From Tissierellia bacterium (lineage in GTDB: Bacteria; Bacillota; Clostridia; Tissierellales; Tepidimicrobiaceae), in the NCBI GenBank assembly GCA_012728595.1, contig JAAYEU010000150.1, forward strand, positions 1 to 45,818: 45,818 nt of DNA. Direction: 5' to 3'. The notes beneath the pieces were generated by a model. The model was not told the origin of the DNA, searched no databases, and was given only the letters and a program-made list of their open reading frames with translations. Both the position numbers and the translations under genes were made by a program. Below, piece after piece: positions 6,055-45,818 of this stretch (position 1 is its first letter; the number at the start of each line of letters is the position of its first letter).

Positions 6055-6294
6055 TATAAAACCTCTCATCACTGAATTTCAGGGACGAGAGGCCACTTTC
6101 TCGCGGTACCACCCTAATTAGGTTATATACCTCACTCAATTATCATAACGCCAGTGGCGAACAATAGACTTGAGCCTATTGTTAACTCCGAGGTGTCTTC
6201 GTTAAATATTAGCGTCAGTTTCCACCAGCCCTGACTCTCTATAGCTAAGGGATTTAACTACTCCTCCTCTTCATAGTCTTTATATGCTGATGTT
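6055..6294 (-). promoter_or_regulatory. T-box leader of aspS, specifier GAC (Asp)
   Basis: The canonical T-box AGGGTGGTACCGCGAGA lies at 6099-6115 (minus). It is followed by a terminator whose CCTCTC and GAGAGG arms (6087-6092 / 6062-6067) end in TTTTATAA. Stem I carries the AGTAG S-turn opposite GAA, then the specifier GAC (6195-6197) followed by a purine and CCUC, which pairs with GAGG on the 5' side. GAC specifies aspartate, matching the gene. Uncharged tRNA-Asp would stabilise the antiterminator and switch aspS on. Confidence 0.93.
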
Positions 6295-25689: not shown

Positions 25690-25997
25690 ATAATAAAATA
25701 AAAAAACCTTCCATCCTAAAGGACGAAAGGTTATCTTCCGCGGTGCCACCCTTATTAGCAAAAGGCTCTCTTTAACCAGTACAGAATAATAATTCTATAC
25801 TGTATAGTTGATAACGGACTATACCCGTCTAAGCCTACTCTTTGCATAAACAAATTTCGGTTAGAAGCTTAGGGATGTTCTTCATCATTAATTCCGTGCC
25901 GGATTCCCACCAACTACCGACTCTCTGAAACTTCCTTAATGACTACTCTTCCCCTCATTGCTTTTGTTTGATTTTTCAGTTAACTATTATATTTTAA
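25690..25997 (-). promoter_or_regulatory. T-box leader of asnA, specifier AAC (Asn)
   Basis: The T-box AGGGTGGCACCGCGGA lies at 25737-25752 (minus). The terminator arms AACCTTTCGTCC and GGATGGAAGGTT span about 25705-25732 and end in a T-run. Stem I has the AGTAG S-turn. The specifier AAC (25877-25879) is followed by A and UCCCU, which pairs with AGGGG on the 5' side. Asn matches asnA. It also fills the 374-base gap between asnA and the DUF3006 gene. Confidence 0.92.
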
Positions 25998-33063: not shown

Positions 33064-34032
33064 CTAATATAGATGGCAGGCCACACTGTGATCTGGGCTT
33101 ATTTCTTTAAGTTTTGGTTCTATTTCATAACACTTTTTCATGGCATATTTACATCTGGTTACGAATCTACATCCTTTTGGTGGATTAAGGGGACTTGGTA
33201 CATCTCCCTCTAAGGCTTTAATAGTTTTAGCTGCCATCTTTGGATCTGGCTCTAAAACTGAGGACAAAAGGGCCTGGGTGTAAGGATGGGCCGGATGATT
33301 ATAGATTTCATCACTTGGCCCTTTTTCAACTAACTTACCTAAATACATAACCCCTATACGATGGGATATATACCTTACCATAGAAAGATCATGAGCAATA
33401 AATAGATAAGTTAGACCCAATTCTTCTTGCAAATCCTCTAGCATGTTTACTACCTGTGCTTGGATGGATACGTCTAAGGCAGAAATAGGCTCATCACAGA
33501 GAATAAATTCTGGTTTAATGGATAAGGCTCTTGCAATTCCAATCCTCTGTCTTTGCCCACCACTAAACTCATGAGGATATCTTCCCAAATGGTCTTTGTT
33601 TAAGCCAACCTTTTCCAATAGTTCAATAACCCTTTCCCTTCTTTGGCCCTTATCTCCTATATTATAGACATCTAAAGGTTCGGAAATTATTTCTTCTACT
33701 GTCAAAGTAGGATTTAAGGAAGAATAGGGGTCCTGAAATATTACCTGCATTTTCCTTCTATAGGATTTAAGTTGTCTTCCATTTAATTTAGATATATCTT
33801 TCCCTCTATATAATATTTCTCCATCGGTAATGTCGAAAAGCCTTATAATACTCTTACCAACAGTTGATTTTCCACAGCCAGATTCCCCCACCAGACCAAA
33901 AGTCTCTCCTTCATTTATATAAAAGCTTACACCATCTACTGCCTTTAAATATTGTGTTTTACCTATGATGGATGATTTTTTTGCAGGATAGTATTTCTTT
34001 AAATCTTTTACCTCTATCAATTTACTCTTCAT
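33064..34032 (-). CDS. oppF: Oligopeptide ABC importer ATPase OppF
   Basis: This is one of two ATPases of the importer. Walker A GESGCGKST (about residues 50-58), signature FSGGQRQRIGIARAL and Walker B EFILCDEP are present. The C-terminal domain has cysteines in GCRFVTRCKYAMKKC and VACHL, typical of oligopeptide-type ATPases. The ATG at 34032 has AAAGGTG upstream and overlaps oppD by 11 bases; an upstream in-frame ATG at 34050 is less likely. Confidence 0.93.
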   Translation of the reverse strand: MKSKLIEVKDLKKYYPAKKSSIIGKTQYLKAVDGVSFYINEGETFGLVGESGCGKSTVGKSIIRLFDITDGEILYRGKDISKLNGRQLKSYRRKMQVIFQDPYSSLNPTLTVEEIISEPLDVYNIGDKGQRRERVIELLEKVGLNKDHLGRYPHEFSGGQRQRIGIARALSIKPEFILCDEPISALDVSIQAQVVNMLEDLQEELGLTYLFIAHDLSMVRYISHRIGVMYLGKLVEKGPSDEIYNHPAHPYTQALLSSVLEPDPKMAAKTIKALEGDVPSPLNPPKGCRFVTRCKYAMKKCYEIEPKLKEISPDHSVACHLY

Positions 34033-35026
34033 GATTTTCACCTTTTCCATTTATAGATTTATCCAATAGCCAACACATGCCCCTATGGTTTTCACCATCA
34101 TAATAATACTTTGGCTGTTTTTCCCTACATATATCCATAGTGTAGGGACAGCGATCCGCAAAAGGACAACCTTTAATCTCATTGGCTAAATTAGGTGGAT
34201 TCCCCTTGATAGGTATAAGTCTTTCTTTCATTTTTCCTCCCGTTTTGGGTAAGGATTGAAGAAGTCCTTTAGTATAGGGGTGTAGCGGAGTGTAAAAGAT
34301 ATCCTCAACACTTCCTTCCTCCATTATCATGCCACCATACATAACAACTACCCTAGAGCAAATGTTTGCTACTACTCCTAAGTCATGGGTTATAAGTATG
34401 ATCGAAGTATTGAGCTTTTCCTTTAATTCTTTTAAAAGTTCAAGTATTTGAGCCTGTATGGTAACATCCAAAGCAGTAGTTGGTTCATCAGCTATTAATA
34501 AGTCTGGTTTACAACTCAAAGCCATGGCTATAATGGCTCTTTGTCTCATACCTCCGCTAAATTCATGAGGATAGTTATTGTACCTTTCTTCTGCTGAAGG
34601 AATACCTACCATCTTTAACATTTCTATGGTCTTTTTCTTTGCCTCTTTTCTACTTAATTTTTGATGCCTCATTATGACATCTGTAATCTGATTTCCTACT
34701 GTAAATACTGGATTTAAAGAGGTCATTGGGTCTTGGAATATCATGGCTATATCATTTCCTCGTATCTTTAACATTTCCTTTTCACTTTTATTTAATAGAT
34801 TTTCACCCTTGTAAATTATCTGTCCTTTGGTTACTTTTCCTGTACCCTTTAACAATCCCATTATGGATAAGTTGGTTACAGTTTTTCCACTACCCGATTC
34901 ACCAACTATCCCTAATATTTCTCCTTTTTTAACATCAAAGTTAATCCCACGAACGGCTCTAACTTTACCATTGCGGTTAAAAAAAGTTACCTCCAAATCT
35001 TTTACTTCAAGTAAGGAGTCCTTCAT
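34022..35026 (-). CDS. oppD: Oligopeptide ABC importer ATPase OppD
   Basis: The 334-residue partner ATPase has Walker A GESGSGKT, signature FSGGMRQRAIIAMAL, Walker B DLLIADEPTTALDVT and the C-terminal GCPFADRCPYTMDICRE cysteine motif with a last Cys in GMCWL, the possible Fe-S or redox site of this domain. It sits between oppC (23-base gap) and oppF and forms the OppDF heterodimer. Confidence 0.94.
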   Translation of the reverse strand: MKDSLLEVKDLEVTFFNRNGKVRAVRGINFDVKKGEILGIVGESGSGKTVTNLSIMGLLKGTGKVTKGQIIYKGENLLNKSEKEMLKIRGNDIAMIFQDPMTSLNPVFTVGNQITDVIMRHQKLSRKEAKKKTIEMLKMVGIPSAEERYNNYPHEFSGGMRQRAIIAMALSCKPDLLIADEPTTALDVTIQAQILELLKELKEKLNTSIILITHDLGVVANICSRVVVMYGGMIMEEGSVEDIFYTPLHPYTKGLLQSLPKTGGKMKERLIPIKGNPPNLANEIKGCPFADRCPYTMDICREKQPKYYYDGENHRGMCWLLDKSINGKGENHEE

Positions 35027-35049
35027 TATATTACATCCTTTCCTATTTT

Positions 35050-35895
35050 CTAGTCATCATTGGCTTTAGGTTCGAAAGCAAGTCTAAAAATATCCCCTAA
35101 AACGTTGAAACTTAAAACCGTCATTAAGATTAGAATTCCTGGAAAAAAGGCCAAATAAGGCGCTTCTTCCATATAGCCTTGTGCATATTTAAGCATACTG
35201 CCCCAAGAAGAATTTGGTTGTCGTACTCCTAATCCTAAGAAGCTTAGGGATGATTCCATAAGAATTGCGCTGGCTATATTTAGGGTAGCAGCAACTATAA
35301 CAGTAGGAAATATATTGGGTATTATGTGTTTTTTTATAATGACGCTGGATTTTTCCCCAATTACCTGAGAATATTGGACATATTCCCGCTCCTTAATTGA
35401 AATAGTTTCACCCCTAACTATCCTTGCTATGCTCATCCAGCTAAATAAACCTATAATGATTATTATGTTTTGAACCCCGGGTTTTAAATAAGCATTTAAT
35501 ATCAGTATTAGAAAAAAGGTAGGTATACTCATTAAAATATCTACAAATCTCATGATAAAACTATCTACTTTACCTCCAAAATATCCACTAATGGTTCCTA
35601 CTATGGTTCCTATGGTTGTTGAGATTATCATAGACAAAAATCCTACGGTAAGGGATACTCTTCCACCATATAGGGCGCGGGTAAAATAATCCCTTCCCAT
35701 CTCATCGGTGCCAAAGGGGTGTTGTTTTGAAGGTGCTGCTAGCCGGTTCATAACATCTATTTTATTGGGATCATAGGGGGATAGAAAGGCTAAAACCGAT
35801 GCAAAAGTCAATATAACTATTACGAAAATAGAAATTTTCCCCAAGCTATTCTCTTTTAACTGTTCTGTTACATTAGACAATAATTTGCTATTCAT
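35050..35895 (-). CDS. oppC: Oligopeptide ABC importer permease OppC
   Basis: The 281-residue inner-membrane permease has an N-terminal helix followed by a short conserved cytoplasmic/external segment (HPFGTDEMGRDYFTRALYGGR), five later membrane helices, and the EAA coupling loop with VIIKKHIIPNIFPT. The gene is 2 bases from oppB, implying co-translation. Confidence 0.93.
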   Translation of the reverse strand: MNSKLLSNVTEQLKENSLGKISIFVIVILTFASVLAFLSPYDPNKIDVMNRLAAPSKQHPFGTDEMGRDYFTRALYGGRVSLTVGFLSMIISTTIGTIVGTISGYFGGKVDSFIMRFVDILMSIPTFFLILILNAYLKPGVQNIIIIIGLFSWMSIARIVRGETISIKEREYVQYSQVIGEKSSVIIKKHIIPNIFPTVIVAATLNIASAILMESSLSFLGLGVRQPNSSWGSMLKYAQGYMEEAPYLAFFPGILILMTVLSFNVLGDIFRLAFEPKANDD

Positions 35896-35897
35896 TA

Positions 35898-36848
35898 TTA
35901 ATTCAACTCCTTAATCCTTGGATCTACAACGCTGTAAAGTACATCAGATAATAGATTTCCCAATATGAGTATTAGAGAGGAAAACATGGTAATTGCCATG
36001 ATTAAAGGATAGTCATAGCTAAATATAGCAGTCACACCCAGTTGTCCCATACCAGGCCAACCAAATATGCTCTCAGTAATAAAAGCTCCCGACACTAGAC
36101 TAGGTAAAGACATGCCTAATATGGTTATTACTGGTAAAATGGCATTTTTCAATACATATTTATATAATATTTCATTCCTACTAGCCCCTGCAGCCAATTG
36201 AACTATGACATAATCTTCCTTCAATTGACTGATGGTACTAGACCTGATATATCTGGCAATCACTGCTATATTTTGAATGCTCAACACTAGCGTAGGCATG
36301 ATTGCATGCTTGATAAGATCCCAAGTGCTATGAACCCCAATGGTTCTCATACCAATACTTGGCAATAATTTCAACTTTAGAGATAATAGGAATATCAACA
36401 TCATTGCAAACCAAAAACTCGGTATAGAGATTCCAAGGTAAGAAATTAATGTAACAATTCTATCAAAGAGCTTATTTTGATTGGCTGCTGATAGAAGCCC
36501 CACAATAATCCCTACAATCATGGAAAAAATTAAAGAGGTGGACATAAGCCCTATAGTTGCAGGTAGCCTCTCTTTTATTTGGATTAGAACAGGTCTATGA
36601 TTGACTAAAGAATAACCTAAATCACCCTTTAATACATTTTTTAGCCATCTTATATATTGAATGTGGATCGGGTCATTAAGCCCTAAATTTTCTCTAATCC
36701 TCTCAATGTCTGTTGGTCCCATCTCAGGTGTTATATAAGCCTGAACCGGGTCTCCAGGTGCTAGTTTTATTAACAAAAAGGAAACTATGGATATGGCAAT
36801 AAGCATAGGGATAGTCTGTAGCATCCTTTTTACTATCAATCTTCTCAC
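35898..36848 (-). CDS. oppB: Oligopeptide ABC importer permease OppB
   Basis: The 316-residue permease has the family start MRRLIVKRMLQTIPMLI, the external segment GDPVQAYITPEMGP ... LGLNDPIHIQYIRW, six membrane helices, and a coupling loop AAGASRNEILYKYVLKNA. An 18-bp hairpin separates it from oppA, and TAGGAGG precedes its start. Confidence 0.93.
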   Translation of the reverse strand: MRRLIVKRMLQTIPMLIAISIVSFLLIKLAPGDPVQAYITPEMGPTDIERIRENLGLNDPIHIQYIRWLKNVLKGDLGYSLVNHRPVLIQIKERLPATIGLMSTSLIFSMIVGIIVGLLSAANQNKLFDRIVTLISYLGISIPSFWFAMMLIFLLSLKLKLLPSIGMRTIGVHSTWDLIKHAIMPTLVLSIQNIAVIARYIRSSTISQLKEDYVIVQLAAGASRNEILYKYVLKNAILPVITILGMSLPSLVSGAFITESIFGWPGMGQLGVTAIFSYDYPLIMAITMFSSLILILGNLLSDVLYSVVDPRIKELN

Positions 36849-36866
36849 TGTAATTCCTCCTAAAAT

Positions 36867-36907
36867 AATTATAAAAGTAAACTGAAAGCCAGTTTACTTT
36901 TATAATT
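36867..36907 (-). terminator. 18-bp perfect hairpin between oppA and oppB
   Basis: Arms 36867-36884 and 36890-36907 are perfectly complementary with a 5-base loop, starting 10 bases after the oppA stop. The weak T-run afterwards (ATTTT) and the strong stem suggest partial termination or 3' protection of the oppA message, raising binding-protein output over permeases. Confidence 0.75.
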
Positions 36908-36917
36908 GTTTATTCTA

Positions 36918-38528
36918 TTATTCAGTTAGATAAAGTTTAGACAAATCTTCGAACATGGTAATTGGTACCAAGCGCGCTTCTTCAATTCCACCAAATCTAT
37001 CATCTATAGCTACTATAGATTTAGGATAAGCTATTGGATATACCACCATATCATCCATTATAATCCTTTGGATTTCTTCATATATTTCAGCCCTTTTAGC
37101 TGGGTCAGTTTCAATAACTCCCTTGTCCCACATTGGATCCAATTCTTCATTTACATATCCCATGAAGTTGTTTGGATTTCCTGCCAAGAAGAGTGGACTA
37201 TATCCACTAGGATCAAGACCCATAACATAGCCATTAAAGGCTAAATCGAAATCAGTTGTGCTTGCATCGATGAATTTCTCTAGGAAAGCTCCTCTTTCCA
37301 TTGGAATAAGCTCTAAATCTATTCCAATTTCGCTTAGTTGTTGCTGCATTATTAAACCATATGCTTCTTGTTCTTTACTGGAATTGGTATAGGCTAACCT
37401 TAAGCTTAAATTATCATAGCCAGCCTTTTCCATAAGCTCCTTGGCCTTATCTAAATTGTATTCATACTTTTCAACATCTTCAGTATAATATTGGGTAGTT
37501 GGCACGAATACAGAATAAGCCTTTTTAGCATATTCTTCTGATCGATATACACCTGCTATTATCTCGTCTTTATTGATTGCATATGCAATAGCCTTTCTAA
37601 CATCCTTGTTTTGTAGAGCTTCGTTATTCAATCTAAATACCATATTGTTTAACATACCTTCATCGAAGGTTGCCACGTGGAAGTTTTCATTCCCACTAAA
37701 TTTATCTATATCATCTGTTGTAATATATCTAGCACTCAATTCCCCATTTAATAGAGCAGTGTTAGCAGAGTTTGGATCGGAAATAACTCTAAATACCACT
37801 CCATCTAGATTTGGCCTTCCGCCAAAGTAATCTTCAAATCTTTCCAATTCCAATTTTTCTCCACTTTTAAATTCTTTAAATTTGAAGGGACCTGAACCAA
37901 TTGGCTCTAAGTTCTTATCACTTTTTGCTAAATCTTCTTCACCTTCAAATATGTGTTTAGGAATTGGTCTTATGGCACCTAGCTTACTCATAAATGGAAC
38001 GGATATTTGAGGCAGCTTAAATTCAACGGTTAAATCATCAATTTTGTTTACTTCTACTGGCTTACCATCTACTAAGAAGTTACCTATTAAATGGGAGTTT
38101 TGACTTTCATCAAGGATAGAAGTAACTGTAAACACTATATCATCAGCAGTTATTGGCTCTCCATCATGCCATTTTAGTCCTTCTTTTAATTTTAAGGTAT
38201 AGCTTAAAAAATCTTCAGATGGTGTTATACTTTCCGCTAAATAAAATCTAGTTTCTTCTGCATCTGTTACATAAAGGGGTGCAAACAAGGCATTATTTAT
38301 AGTCATTGTAACCCTGTCGCCTGCATAAAGGGGATTCATTACGTTCGGGTCGCTGTTGATGGCAAATATAAATATTCCACCATCTACTTTAGTTTTTTCT
38401 ACGGATTCACCCTCTGTAGCTTCATTTGTTGTATCAGCAGGTGCTTGATTTTCACTTGTATTGCTGCAGGCTGCTGATATTACCATTACTAAAGCAATAA
38501 CTAATACTAACCATTTTTTGTTCATCAT
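36918..38528 (-). CDS. oppA: Oligopeptide-binding lipoprotein OppA-type
   Basis: This is the extracellular solute-binding protein. The 536-residue precursor has a signal with lipobox ISAAC (Cys about residue 21), a Thr/Glu-rich linker, and the class C fold segments YTLKLKEGLKWHDGEPITADD and FKFKEFKSGEKLELERFEDY. TTAGGAGG precedes the tandem start codons. It is the first gene of the opp operon. Whether the cargo is peptides, nickel or opines cannot be told from sequence; pepF nearby favours peptides. Confidence 0.93.
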   Translation of the reverse strand: MMNKKWLVLVIALVMVISAACSNTSENQAPADTTNEATEGESVEKTKVDGGIFIFAINSDPNVMNPLYAGDRVTMTINNALFAPLYVTDAEETRFYLAESITPSEDFLSYTLKLKEGLKWHDGEPITADDIVFTVTSILDESQNSHLIGNFLVDGKPVEVNKIDDLTVEFKLPQISVPFMSKLGAIRPIPKHIFEGEEDLAKSDKNLEPIGSGPFKFKEFKSGEKLELERFEDYFGGRPNLDGVVFRVISDPNSANTALLNGELSARYITTDDIDKFSGNENFHVATFDEGMLNNMVFRLNNEALQNKDVRKAIAYAINKDEIIAGVYRSEEYAKKAYSVFVPTTQYYTEDVEKYEYNLDKAKELMEKAGYDNLSLRLAYTNSSKEQEAYGLIMQQQLSEIGIDLELIPMERGAFLEKFIDASTTDFDLAFNGYVMGLDPSGYSPLFLAGNPNNFMGYVNEELDPMWDKGVIETDPAKRAEIYEEIQRIIMDDMVVYPIAYPKSIVAIDDRFGGIEEARLVPITMFEDLSKLYLTE

Positions 38529-42379: not shown

Positions 42380-42660
42380 TTGATAAAATAAAAAATTCCC
42401 GCCCCCAATTATAATTTAGAGACGAGAATACCCGCGTTACCACTCTACTTGGTTTTATTATTAAAACCCACTCAATTCAAATAACGCTTTGAATGCGAAA
42501 TAGGATACTCACCCAATATATTAGGCTTTGTCCTATTTGTCTCAACAGCTCTTTTCACCATACTTTCAATTCACTGGCTCTCACCTAACCCAGTTTCTCT
42601 GTAAAATCTACTGATATGGCTACTCTCTGTGTCATAGACTTTAAATATTCACTTTTTATA
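42380..42660 (-). promoter_or_regulatory. T-box leader (gene-proximal), specifier AGA (Arg)
   Basis: T-box AGAGTGGTAACGCGGGT lies at 42430-42446. The terminator stem (ATTCTCGTCTC with GGGGGCGGGAAT, G-U pairs) ends in TTTTTT. Stem I has AGTAG and, after GAAA, the specifier AGA (42550-42552) followed by G and CUGU, which pairs with ACAG on the 5' side. AGA reads tRNA-Arg(UCU). It is the second of two in tandem, directly ahead of the binding-protein gene. Confidence 0.88.
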
Positions 42661-42698: not shown

Positions 42699-42974
42699 AA
42701 TTAAAAAACTCGCCTCTAATATAGAGACGAGTATATATACCCGTGGTACCACTCTAATGGTGTTTTACTAGAAAGAAAAGTAAAACCCACTCAATTCAAA
42801 TAACGCTTTGAATGCGGGATAAGATACTCACCTATAAGGCTTTGTCCTATCCGTTTCAGCAACTCTTTTCGTTAAGCTTTCCATCTACTGGCTCTCACCT
42901 AACCCAGCTCTCTGTCAGATGTACTCATCATAACTACTCCTTTGCATCTTCAACTTTTTCGTCATTTTACATTA
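42699..42974 (-). promoter_or_regulatory. T-box leader (promoter-proximal), specifier AGA (Arg)
   Basis: T-box AGAGTGGTACCACGGGT lies at 42739-42755. The terminator (ACTCGTCTCT / AGAGGCGAGT) is followed by TTTTTTAA. Stem I carries AGTAG and the specifier AGA (42864-42866), followed by G and UUGC pairing with GCAA on the 5' side. The segment CACTCAATTCAAATAACGCT is shared with the proximal T-box, so the two arose by duplication, yet their Stem I bases differ with compensating changes. Confidence 0.88.
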
Positions 42975-43027: not shown

Positions 43028-44935
43028 TTATAATTTGATTTCTTTTGCTCTTTCCTTTAAAATATATTCTACCTCTTCTAAGTTTCCTACAGCATAATCT
43101 ACTACTTTATCCGATTGTATAAGCATACCATCTTCACCTACTATTTTTACACTACCCTTTACTGGTTTAGTCTTCCAGGCTTTTGCATATTTAAATTCAT
43201 CTACTTCTCCCCATAAATAGGGTACTGGTAGGAATCCTGCTGCAAATATCTTGTAGAATCCTTCAGCTGAATATGGGTTATCTACATACTTTTCAATACC
43301 AGAAATAATGGTCCTAGCAGACTCTAATAACTCTTGCATACGTTCTTCAACATCTGTATTTTTACTCATATCCTCTATTTTCCCATCTCTTCTTAGTTCT
43401 CTATATTTTTGTAGTGAATATTGAGTAATCTTTATACTTTCGTTAATAATTTCTGGTGTTGCCAAGTGGGAGGCTTCTGAATAACTAACAACGTGAATGA
43501 TTGGTGGACTAGATTCATCATGGGGATCTATATCATCCATTAAGGCAGTTACTGCTGCCAATTGTATCTTAGCCTCTTCTAGATCTGGTTTAAAGTAATC
43601 TAGTCCTGCTCTTGGTTGTAGTATGACTCTAAAGTTTGAGTCTTCTAAGCTCTTAACCAAGGTGAGCATAGCTCTGGATTTAGCTAAATCTTGAATTCCC
43701 CAAGTATACCTTGGAGTATTTAACATATTTTGCAGTATTAGAGTTTTAACTCCTATTTTTTTAGCCAATTTAGCTGCTAAATAAGCAGATACTATATAGG
43801 TTACGTCATCTGCCCCTCTGAAGGCAAAATGATGGGGTAGATTTGGCTCAAAGGGCTTATTGGTTTTTGCAATATATTCCAAAGTCTCAATATGTTGCTT
43901 AAGGTTAGTGTATAAGTCATATGGACCTCTTCCATCCAACTTATTAAACCACCATAAGGATAAAGCATGCCAGCAAATATTTATGGTCTCTTCATATATT
44001 TTAGCCAGCTGAGGTATGTTTTTGGTTCCAGCATAGGTTCTCAACAATAAAGGTCGAGATGCATCCCATATCATCCTATATTCCTCAGGAGAATTTATTG
44101 GAACGCCTCCACCATTTGGTTTATCTCCCCAATCTTCACCAAAATTAGATTGGGTAAGTTGAGAGGTGCCAATGGATAAAATATCCAAATATCCAGTTTT
44201 GGCTAAGTAGTCTGCCCAGGATAAAAATTCCTTAACGGATTCCATTCTATCTACTGAAGATGAATATGGCCCTACGTGAGCTCTCATTAATGGATAAAAA
44301 GGCCTATTCATGTTAGAATCAAGCCTTTTCACTACTGTATCTTTTGCCGTTCCATATTCGTCATATGTAGCACGGTTTACAGGTTCAAAAGAGTCGTAGG
44401 CTTGTGAATTTATAATATCTTTTCCAAATTCCATCCTAAGATCATCATATAAGCTTCCCTCTATGATGTCCCTAGGAATCCTTTCTTCAGGAATCCCCAT
44501 CTTGGTTAATGTTTCTTTAACCGATTCTCCACCTATGAAGGTCTTTATAAAGCCTTTATGCTCTCTCTCAATTATCTCACAGGTCTTAGGCAGGCCAGCA
44601 AAATATATGGCCTTGATGGGACCTCCTTGATAAGATAGCATATCCCTGCTTTTTAATGCATTCATAAAATATCCAACCATATTAACTGCTTCATCTTGAT
44701 CTAACCTATAACTTAATCCAATCTGGCTTACATCATTTTTATTAATCCATTCCACAATTTTTTCTTGATTAACTTCATATCTTATATTGTTCAAAGCTTC
44801 TGCTATAGATTCATTTGCAAAAATCACCTGATAACCGCAATCTCGTAAAAGCTCTGCAGCCGAATTAATTCCAAGGGTATGAGCATCTAAAGATGGTTTT
44901 ATAAATGCAAAAATATCTCCGTCTACTGCAAACAT
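43028..44935 (-). CDS. Cobalamin-binding domain protein with a large unassigned C-terminal domain
   Basis: The first ~150 residues look like a B12 Rossmann domain. They hold DAHTLG (D17-x-H19-x-x-G22), matching the DxHxxG lower-ligand motif, then GLSYRLD in the SxL position and FIGG in the GG position. The ~480 remaining residues include RAHVGPYSSSVDR, SIGTSQLTQSNFGEDWGD, HHFAFRGADDVTYIVSAYLAAK and ILQNMLNTPRYTWGIQDLAKSR, which resemble the TIM-barrel half of methylaspartate/glutamate-type mutases; this resemblance is from pattern only. Being fused in the order B12 then barrel, it differs from OraE and KamE. AAAGGAGG precedes the ATG, and the gene has its own promoter. Substrate unknown. Confidence 0.7.
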   Translation of the reverse strand: MFAVDGDIFAFIKPSLDAHTLGINSAAELLRDCGYQVIFANESIAEALNNIRYEVNQEKIVEWINKNDVSQIGLSYRLDQDEAVNMVGYFMNALKSRDMLSYQGGPIKAIYFAGLPKTCEIIEREHKGFIKTFIGGESVKETLTKMGIPEERIPRDIIEGSLYDDLRMEFGKDIINSQAYDSFEPVNRATYDEYGTAKDTVVKRLDSNMNRPFYPLMRAHVGPYSSSVDRMESVKEFLSWADYLAKTGYLDILSIGTSQLTQSNFGEDWGDKPNGGGVPINSPEEYRMIWDASRPLLLRTYAGTKNIPQLAKIYEETINICWHALSLWWFNKLDGRGPYDLYTNLKQHIETLEYIAKTNKPFEPNLPHHFAFRGADDVTYIVSAYLAAKLAKKIGVKTLILQNMLNTPRYTWGIQDLAKSRAMLTLVKSLEDSNFRVILQPRAGLDYFKPDLEEAKIQLAAVTALMDDIDPHDESSPPIIHVVSYSEASHLATPEIINESIKITQYSLQKYRELRRDGKIEDMSKNTDVEERMQELLESARTIISGIEKYVDNPYSAEGFYKIFAAGFLPVPYLWGEVDEFKYAKAWKTKPVKGSVKIVGEDGMLIQSDKVVDYAVGNLEEVEYILKERAKEIKL

Positions 44936-45089: not shown

Positions 45090-45818
45090 TTACTCATACT
45101 TGCATAATTCCAAAACAGTATTCAACATTAATGCTATTCCCTTTTCAATATCTTCATAGTCAGTCCATTCATCTGGATGATGGCTCAAACCAGCTTTACT
45201 GGGCACGAATATCAAGCTTGAAGGGGCCATCTTTGCCATAATCATTGCATCATGGCCAGCACCACTATTCATTCTCATGTAAGTATAACCTAGTTTTTGA
45301 CATACTTTTTCCATTAGGGCAATATTCTTATCAGACATATTAACTGGCTGAATGTAAAGATTATGTGTTATTTGGATGTCTATATGGTATTTACTCTTAA
45401 TATATTCAGATTCCTCAATTAGTCGATTATAAAAAGCTTTTATGTTGTCTTCCTTAGTAGACCTTATATCCAAGGAAAGATTAACATACCCTGGTATTAC
45501 ATTTGAGGCATTTGGGGTTAGGCTCAATTGACCAACCGTTCCTACTGTACCATCTCCAATCTCCTTAGCAATTCTATTTACAGCTAATATGAATTCCGAT
45601 GCTCCAACTAAAGCATCTTTCCTCTTGTCCATAGGCGTAGTGCCTGCATGTCCTGACATACCCTTAATAATTACCTCAGGTTTAACTAATATTGTACTGG
45701 ATCCATAAACTTCTTTAACCGTTTTAAAATATATATTTTTTTCTATATAATAAAGCACTCGTGAATTAAATCTCATTAAACTGCCCTTTTCACAAGTGCA
45801 ATATAATTTTTTGAACCA
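45090..45818 (-). CDS. M20 hydantoinase/carbamoylase-family hydrolase, partial at the window edge
   Basis: The C-terminal two-thirds matches the N-carbamoyl-amino-acid/allantoate amidohydrolase group: GMSGHAGTTPMDKRKDAL (dimer domain), TPNASNVIPG, SLDIRS, the metal-site SGAGHDAMIMA and IFVPSKAGLSHHPDEWT. The frame stays open to the last base, so the start is outside. However, residues before the dimer domain read VLYYIEKNIYF where the family has the HIEQG metal motif. The N-terminal part may therefore be divergent or decayed. An ATG at 45776 lacks a ribosome site. It is next to the B12 protein gene (154-base gap). Confidence 0.75.
   Translation of the reverse strand, partial: WFKKLYCTCEKGSLMRFNSRVLYYIEKNIYFKTVKEVYGSSTILVKPEVIIKGMSGHAGTTPMDKRKDALVGASEFILAVNRIAKEIGDGTVGTVGQLSLTPNASNVIPGYVNLSLDIRSTKEDNIKAFYNRLIEESEYIKSKYHIDIQITHNLYIQPVNMSDKNIALMEKVCQKLGYTYMRMNSGAGHDAMIMAKMAPSSLIFVPSKAGLSHHPDEWTDYEDIEKGIALMLNTVLELCKYE

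Follow-up and report, generated by a model that had tools for sequence, protein, structure and literature searches.

Few amino-acid mutases depend on B12, and most of those known serve fermentation or antibiotic synthesis. Among them, glutamate mutase MutS/MutE (EC 5.4.99.1) is partnered by methylaspartate ammonia lyase and reactivated by MutL, and OraSE (D-ornithine 4,5-aminomutase) and KamDE (lysine 5,6-aminomutase) are PLP enzymes. An N-terminal B12 domain is known in IcmF (isobutyryl-CoA mutase fused), an enzyme of acyl-CoA substrates with a G-protein chaperone in mid-protein; to our knowledge, it occurs in none of the amino-acid mutases. A pathway that joins a radical amino-acid mutase to a ligase and a dehydrogenase has an analogue in pyrrolysine synthesis (PylB-PylC-PylD). 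The ablA/ablB system, which makes the osmolyte N-epsilon-acetyl-beta-lysine, places a radical aminomutase behind a c-di-AMP riboswitch (PMC9337991), a class of riboswitches that act as off-switches of K+ and osmotic genes (PMC5575661).

The window analysed here, a stretch of 45,818 nucleotides from a Tissierellia bacterium, encodes a fused B12-domain and mutase-barrel protein, P0001. It shares with glutamate mutase the barrel fold and the glutamate that binds the adenosyl ribose, and its relatives add MutL and similarity to PF06368; it differs in its N-terminally fused B12 domain, in the replacement of Arg66, Arg100 and Arg149 by His, Gln and Tyr, and, at the level of the superfamily, in having an opine-type dehydrogenase as the partner. 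Relative to OraSE and KamDE, the barrel (Z 22-23) and the B12 domain (Z about 10-11) are alike, whereas the B12 domain of P0001 is N-terminal and has no conserved PLP lysine, and the genome of the window (G000) encodes OraE and KamD/E separately. The resemblance to IcmF lies in the N-terminal B12 domain (fold Z 11), the barrel matching only weakly. The mutases of the Pyl and abl systems are radical-SAM enzymes outside the family of P0001. The first-pass annotation, made from the sequence without searches, had set the layout of P0001 apart from OraE, KamDE and MutS/MutE, which stands; IcmF shows that an N-terminal B12 domain is not unique among B12 mutases.

Fold and active site of P0001

The reading frame of P0001 is intact, with zero internal stops and a good ribosome-binding site (aaaggaggacgtgctATG), and it is strongly constrained by purifying selection, with a dN/dS of ~0.05-0.06 against three near orthologues. 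The closest orthologues reach identities of 85-86%, and P0001 is the sole superfamily member found in the 2.19-Mb, 93%-complete genome. A direct PDB sequence search with P0001 returned zero matches, and no match was found in plasmid and phage collections. Pfam gave a B12-binding match at residues 13-80 (E 6e-5, under Pfam's own cut-off) and no credible match, PF06368 (glutamate mutase E, MutE) included, for the remainder; the NCBIfam OraE/KamDE models did not match over cut-off.

The N-terminal domain carries the motifs D17-A-H19-T-L-G22, GLSYRLD at residues 73-79 and FIGG at 133-136. His19 and Gly22 of the DxHxxG motif are invariant (82/82 members), and the Asp is replaced by Cys in most members of a type of about 548 residues. 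AlphaFold modelled the whole protein with a pTM of 0.80, from an alignment of 15 sequences, and the B12 domain separately with a pTM of 0.81. The top rows of a VIA search with the domain model were nearly all B12 domains (Z 9-12), with HCM, IcmF, 5,6-LAM and methylmalonyl-CoA mutase (MCM) matching at Z up to 12.0; by Foldseek alone the matches were weak (best B12 domain, E 6e-3). For the barrel (residues 193-614), the best Foldseek match was the E chain of glutamate mutase (1cb7_B, E 2.3e-10). In VIA-align, glutamate mutase, 5,6-LAM and 4,5-OAM all matched the barrel at Z 22-23, MCM at Z 17 and unrelated barrels at Z ~15, so that the amino-acid mutases clearly exceed the general barrel background. 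Both the N-terminal B12 domain with its motifs and the mutase-like barrel domain of ~480 residues, read initially from the letters, are thus borne out, the barrel resembling B12 mutases and the His and Gly of the cobalt-ligand motif being conserved throughout. As predicted from sequence and models, P0001 combines the two marks of a base-off/His-on AdoCbl mutase, a domain with the cobalt-ligand His and a barrel of the B12-mutase type, and its mutase class is well supported.

Table 1. Positions of P0001, its domains and aligned residues, and of associated features in the window, its genome (contig C104) and related loci.
Feature	Position	Strand	Basis or remark
P0001, fused B12-domain / mutase-barrel protein	43028..44935	-	ORF, 635 aa, ATG start
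B12-binding domain, N-terminal, residues 1-150	44486..44935	-	Pfam, AlphaFold (AF2) and VIA
DAHTLG, residues 17-22, DxHxxG cobalt-ligand motif	44870..44887	-	conservation
Glutamate-mutase-class (beta/alpha)8 barrel and C-terminal part, residues 193-615	43091..44359	-	Foldseek, VIA
His220 codon, aligned with glutamate mutase Arg66	44276..44278	-	hhalign; 83/83
Gln262 codon, aligned with glutamate mutase Arg100	44150..44152	-	hhalign; 83/83
Tyr301 codon, aligned with glutamate mutase Arg149	44033..44035	-	hhalign; 83/83
Glu487 codon, aligned with ribose-binding Glu330 of glutamate mutase	43475..43477	-	hhalign; 83/83
Two tandem T-box leaders ahead of amino-acid importer	window 42415-42644; 42720-42959	-	
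M20 allantoate-amidohydrolase-like gene	window 45090-45818	-	cut by contig end
c-di-AMP riboswitch, only copy above cut-off in G000	C104:37752-37883		109 bits
CENDH-like gene directly after riboswitch	C104:38020-39024		
Mutase-MutL fusions, 1214-1233 residues	L191:1739-5383; L192:5305-9006		

The residue equivalences between P0001 and glutamate mutase come from a profile alignment (hhalign) at ~20% identity and are to be read with corresponding caution. Within it, every one of the 83 members has His, Gln and Tyr in place of the arginine claw of glutamate mutase, which includes Arg100, the ligand of the gamma-carboxylate, and glutamate was rejected as a substrate. The cobalt-ligand His, the YRL motif and the following barrel residues are invariant across the same set: R218, H220, Q262, Y301, W329, D334, R336, E363, N365, R373, D377, K419, R442, H481 and E487. 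The last of these aligns with a ribose-binding glutamate of the mutases (Glu330/Glu338; PMC3958899). In OraE and KamDE, PLP is bound by Lys629 and Lys144, respectively, in the B12 (Rossmann) domain (PMC3958899). Across the aligned members, the B12 domain has no Lys-rich column, the only invariant lysine being K419 in the barrel, and a PLP enzyme of the OraE/KamDE type was likewise rejected. By these residues, P0001 appears to be neither a glutamate mutase nor an OraE/KamDE enzyme; with the claw replaced and the lysine absent, it should be a PLP-free AdoCbl mutase acting on a substrate other than glutamate.

Superfamily and conserved gene partners

The superfamily to which P0001 is assigned by sequence is unnamed and comprises at least four subfamilies; a profile search found a member in 87 of the 398 Bacillota genomes sampled (about a fifth). 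Homologues of P0001 at 56-85% identity occur in Tissierellia and other Clostridia, and three further types of about 548, 518 and 616 residues share the architecture; in the tree, the 635 type is split off with full support, on a long branch. One relative (L185) passes the Pfam MutE cut-off (52 bits, E 4e-14), as do several members of the 548 type. The long N-terminal part of the L185 protein was considered as a dehydrogenase fusion and rejected, as neither Pfam nor the dehydrogenase profile matched there. Distant MutE-like proteins in 560-604-codon frames (G021:C124, G037:C53, G038:C155 and G058:C1:2555408) may represent more subfamilies.

The conserved neighbour of the mutase is a gene of the Octopine_DH family, which lies directly upstream in seven of the first 14 homologous loci. 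Of 29 other loci, 27 have it beside the mutase, as do 71 of a set of 83 (a few genomes counted twice). The two genes usually overlap or are some tens of bases apart, and the partner is present in all four types; no such gene stands next to P0001 itself. The copy in the genome of the window matches CENDH (1bg6) over its whole length (E 2.6e-87), with the catalytic residues His202 and Asp297 aligned, and this His and Asp are invariant in 76/76 dehydrogenases. The partner is a relative of CENDH (N-(1-carboxyethyl)-L-norvaline dehydrogenase), differing from the CENDH/octopine dehydrogenase family in its coupling to a B12 mutase and a c-di-AMP riboswitch. The module as such is well supported. In the papers searched, we found no description of the dehydrogenase-mutase pairing; an earlier mention of the riboswitch association is possible in the ydaO surveys (Block 2010, Nelson 2013).

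MutL is encoded in the mutase operon in three loci (L159, L162 and L166), and two others have it as a C-terminal fusion to the mutase (L191, E 5e-81; L192, E 8e-82), which provides good indirect support for AdoCbl radical chemistry. The remark that no reactivating chaperone or small subunit is adjacent is accurate for the window, but MutL adjoins or is fused to the mutase in some relatives and is also encoded in G000. A Ddl-like ATP-grasp gene occurs near the mutase in 16 of the 83 loci, too few for such a ligase to be an obligate part of the module, a role we rejected; a search of G000 returned only an ordinary Ddl-like match (34%). Genes for AsnB-like amidotransferases, assigned by reading the sequence, were seen near the mutase in L155, L163, L175, L150 and L167.

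Association with c-di-AMP riboswitches

In L148, L154, L166, L173 and L179, Rfam placed a ydaO/c-di-AMP riboswitch (RF00379) immediately before the operon. A scan of 129 mutase-bearing genomes, with distances counted for 130 mutase loci, found the riboswitch at most 6 kb upstream and on the same strand in 58 of the 130, against about 0.2 expected by our own estimate (~1.4 riboswitches per ~2.6-Mb genome), and the upstream scan found no riboswitch at the other 72. Regulation of the module by c-di-AMP is well supported and, since these riboswitches control K+ and osmotic genes, an osmolyte would be the natural reading of the module's product.

Upstream of P0001, no RF00379 aptamer scored over the gathering threshold, and none of the tested 635-type loci with their own dehydrogenase lies behind a c-di-AMP riboswitch. 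In one 635-type locus, such a riboswitch (L009:2749-2876, plus strand) precedes a different gene, several kb away from the dehydrogenase and the mutase. A pattern scan of the module's upstream regions for leaders naming the amino acid gave only weak matches, and Rfam on 14 loci found T-boxes solely ahead of the neighbouring importer and none upstream of the module.

In mutase-bearing genomes, c-di-AMP riboswitches also precede genes for TrkH and Opp-type importers and, in G664, a solitary Ddl-like gene; at L208:5290-6521 (minus strand), the riboswitch stands before a lone Ddl-like ligase gene unlinked to the mutase. Opp-type importers follow these riboswitches in L205 and L209 and stand beside the module in L192; the window has an Opp-type peptide importer at 33064-38528 (minus strand).

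A lone dehydrogenase in the genome of the window

The riboswitch-linked dehydrogenase on contig C104 is the sole strong match of its family in G000. In sister genomes it is followed by a 548-type mutase, which is missing behind the dehydrogenase in G000, G001, G008, G013, G016, G017 and G019. All seven of these lone-dehydrogenase genomes carry a 635-type mutase without a dehydrogenase of its own, compared with a 635-type mutase in two of 16 genomes with an intact pair (Fisher p 1.5e-4, uncorrected for kinship). A complete 616-type module is also present in G008, which is among the seven. G012, a member of the same genus as G017 and G019, carries both 548-type and 635-type mutases. Behind the riboswitch-controlled dehydrogenase of G017, traces of a decayed 548-type mutase survive (L103:11089-11711), with three stretches 65-83% identical (best E 1e-12). 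The dehydrogenases of G000 and G012 share 87% identity. Taken together, the P0001 subfamily looks like a newcomer that has been displacing the resident 548-type mutase. Two observations speak against displacement: no 635-type mutase was seen behind the riboswitch, and the native dehydrogenase of this type shares only about 40% identity with the riboswitch-controlled enzyme.

Proposed pathway and alternative explanations

In the pathway that we propose, P0001 would be a radical mutase that depends on AdoCbl, probably does without PLP and has a fold of the glutamate-mutase class, and it would isomerise a non-glutamate amino acid or an opine (an N-carboxyalkyl amino acid): substrate binding would trigger homolysis of AdoCbl, followed by a 1,2-shift. 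The opine-type dehydrogenase would carry out an NAD(P)H-dependent reductive condensation or imine reduction, the Ddl-like ATP-grasp ligase of some species may form an amide, and MutL would reactivate the mutase. In most lineages, dehydrogenase and mutase share one operon, often behind the c-di-AMP off-riboswitch, and such control makes a compatible solute the most likely product, its synthesis starting as osmotic stress lowers c-di-AMP. The pathway would be split in G000, the C104 dehydrogenase keeping the riboswitch while the unlinked P0001 takes over from the lost 548-type mutase. Valine/norvaline, lysine and an opine were considered as named substrates, and none was supported enough. We regard as evenly balanced the best overall explanation, in which P0001 has taken the place of an earlier, original mutase in a B12-dependent osmolyte pathway controlled by c-di-AMP. 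The fuller reading, of an undescribed and widespread B12-dependent pathway of anaerobic Bacillota in which a c-di-AMP riboswitch controls the formation of a new compatible solute of opine or peptide type, with the P0001 subfamily as a replacement mutase, is put forward tentatively, as somewhat short of an even prospect. If correct, an unnamed mutase superfamily, an opine-type dehydrogenase, MutL and a c-di-AMP riboswitch would tie vitamin B12 to osmotic control, and the module narrows the search for the product to a few co-regulated enzymes and cultured hosts.

The 635-residue subfamily with its own dehydrogenase could instead have a different, constitutive function, P0001 and the riboswitch-controlled dehydrogenase being independent in G000. 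The long branch of the subfamily, the ~40% identity between the two kinds of dehydrogenase and the position of every tested 635-type locus outside riboswitch control are consistent with this, yet P0001 and the C104 dehydrogenase are each the sole strong member of their family in G000 and each lack the usual partner, every lone-dehydrogenase genome carries the 635 type, and the old mutase has decayed in G017; we consider independence rather improbable. The module could also be catabolic: the mutase would rearrange a fermented amino acid, the dehydrogenase would convert the isomer to a 2-oxo acid, and acyl-CoA and ATP would arise through a 2-oxoacid:ferredoxin oxidoreductase together with either a kinase or an ADP-forming ligase. 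The 548-type pair of Tissierellales and the 616-type pair of G020 indeed lie directly behind VorBAC-like genes, mostly accompanied by Buk- and Ptb-like genes (names from reading the sequences, not from HMMs), the P0001 orthologue in L002 adjoins oxidoreductase-alpha-like and ADP-forming-ligase-like genes, and L166 has a 4HBT thioesterase. However, most loci of other families lack the oxidoreductase neighbours, the c-di-AMP riboswitch is found repeatedly in different families and suits stress over feeding, and the dehydrogenase belongs to a family of imine/opine reductases, so that we judge a catabolic role unlikely.

A third possibility, raised in the first-pass annotation from the gene neighbours, is that the adjacent importer and M20 hydrolases supply the mutase with its substrate, which would be an arginine, ornithine or carbamoyl-amino-acid derivative. 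Both tandem T-boxes ahead of the importer do read arginine (specifier AGA, from the Rfam alignment), and tandem copies recur in L004 and L096; position and specifier favour the idea. However, the arginine importer adjoins the mutase only in the window and in two relatives, L004 and L096, and the one further locus with it nearby is L003, at a distance of about 5 kb; M20 genes occur near the mutase in the window and L002 only; the arrangement is confined to the closest relatives, and what is conserved beyond them is the Octopine_DH-family gene. As the M20 gene of the window is cut by the contig end, the full neighbourhood there is unreadable. Moreover, the importer forms a separate unit under its own T-box leader, and G000 has an OraE of its own with MutL (C114) and KamD/E-like genes (C96). 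An arginine-derived substrate is thus highly improbable, and the proposed osmolyte pathway remains our preferred reading. Elsewhere in the window, further T-boxes at 6078-6283 and 25716-25967 (minus strand) precede aspartyl-tRNA-synthetase-like and asparagine-synthetase-A-like genes.
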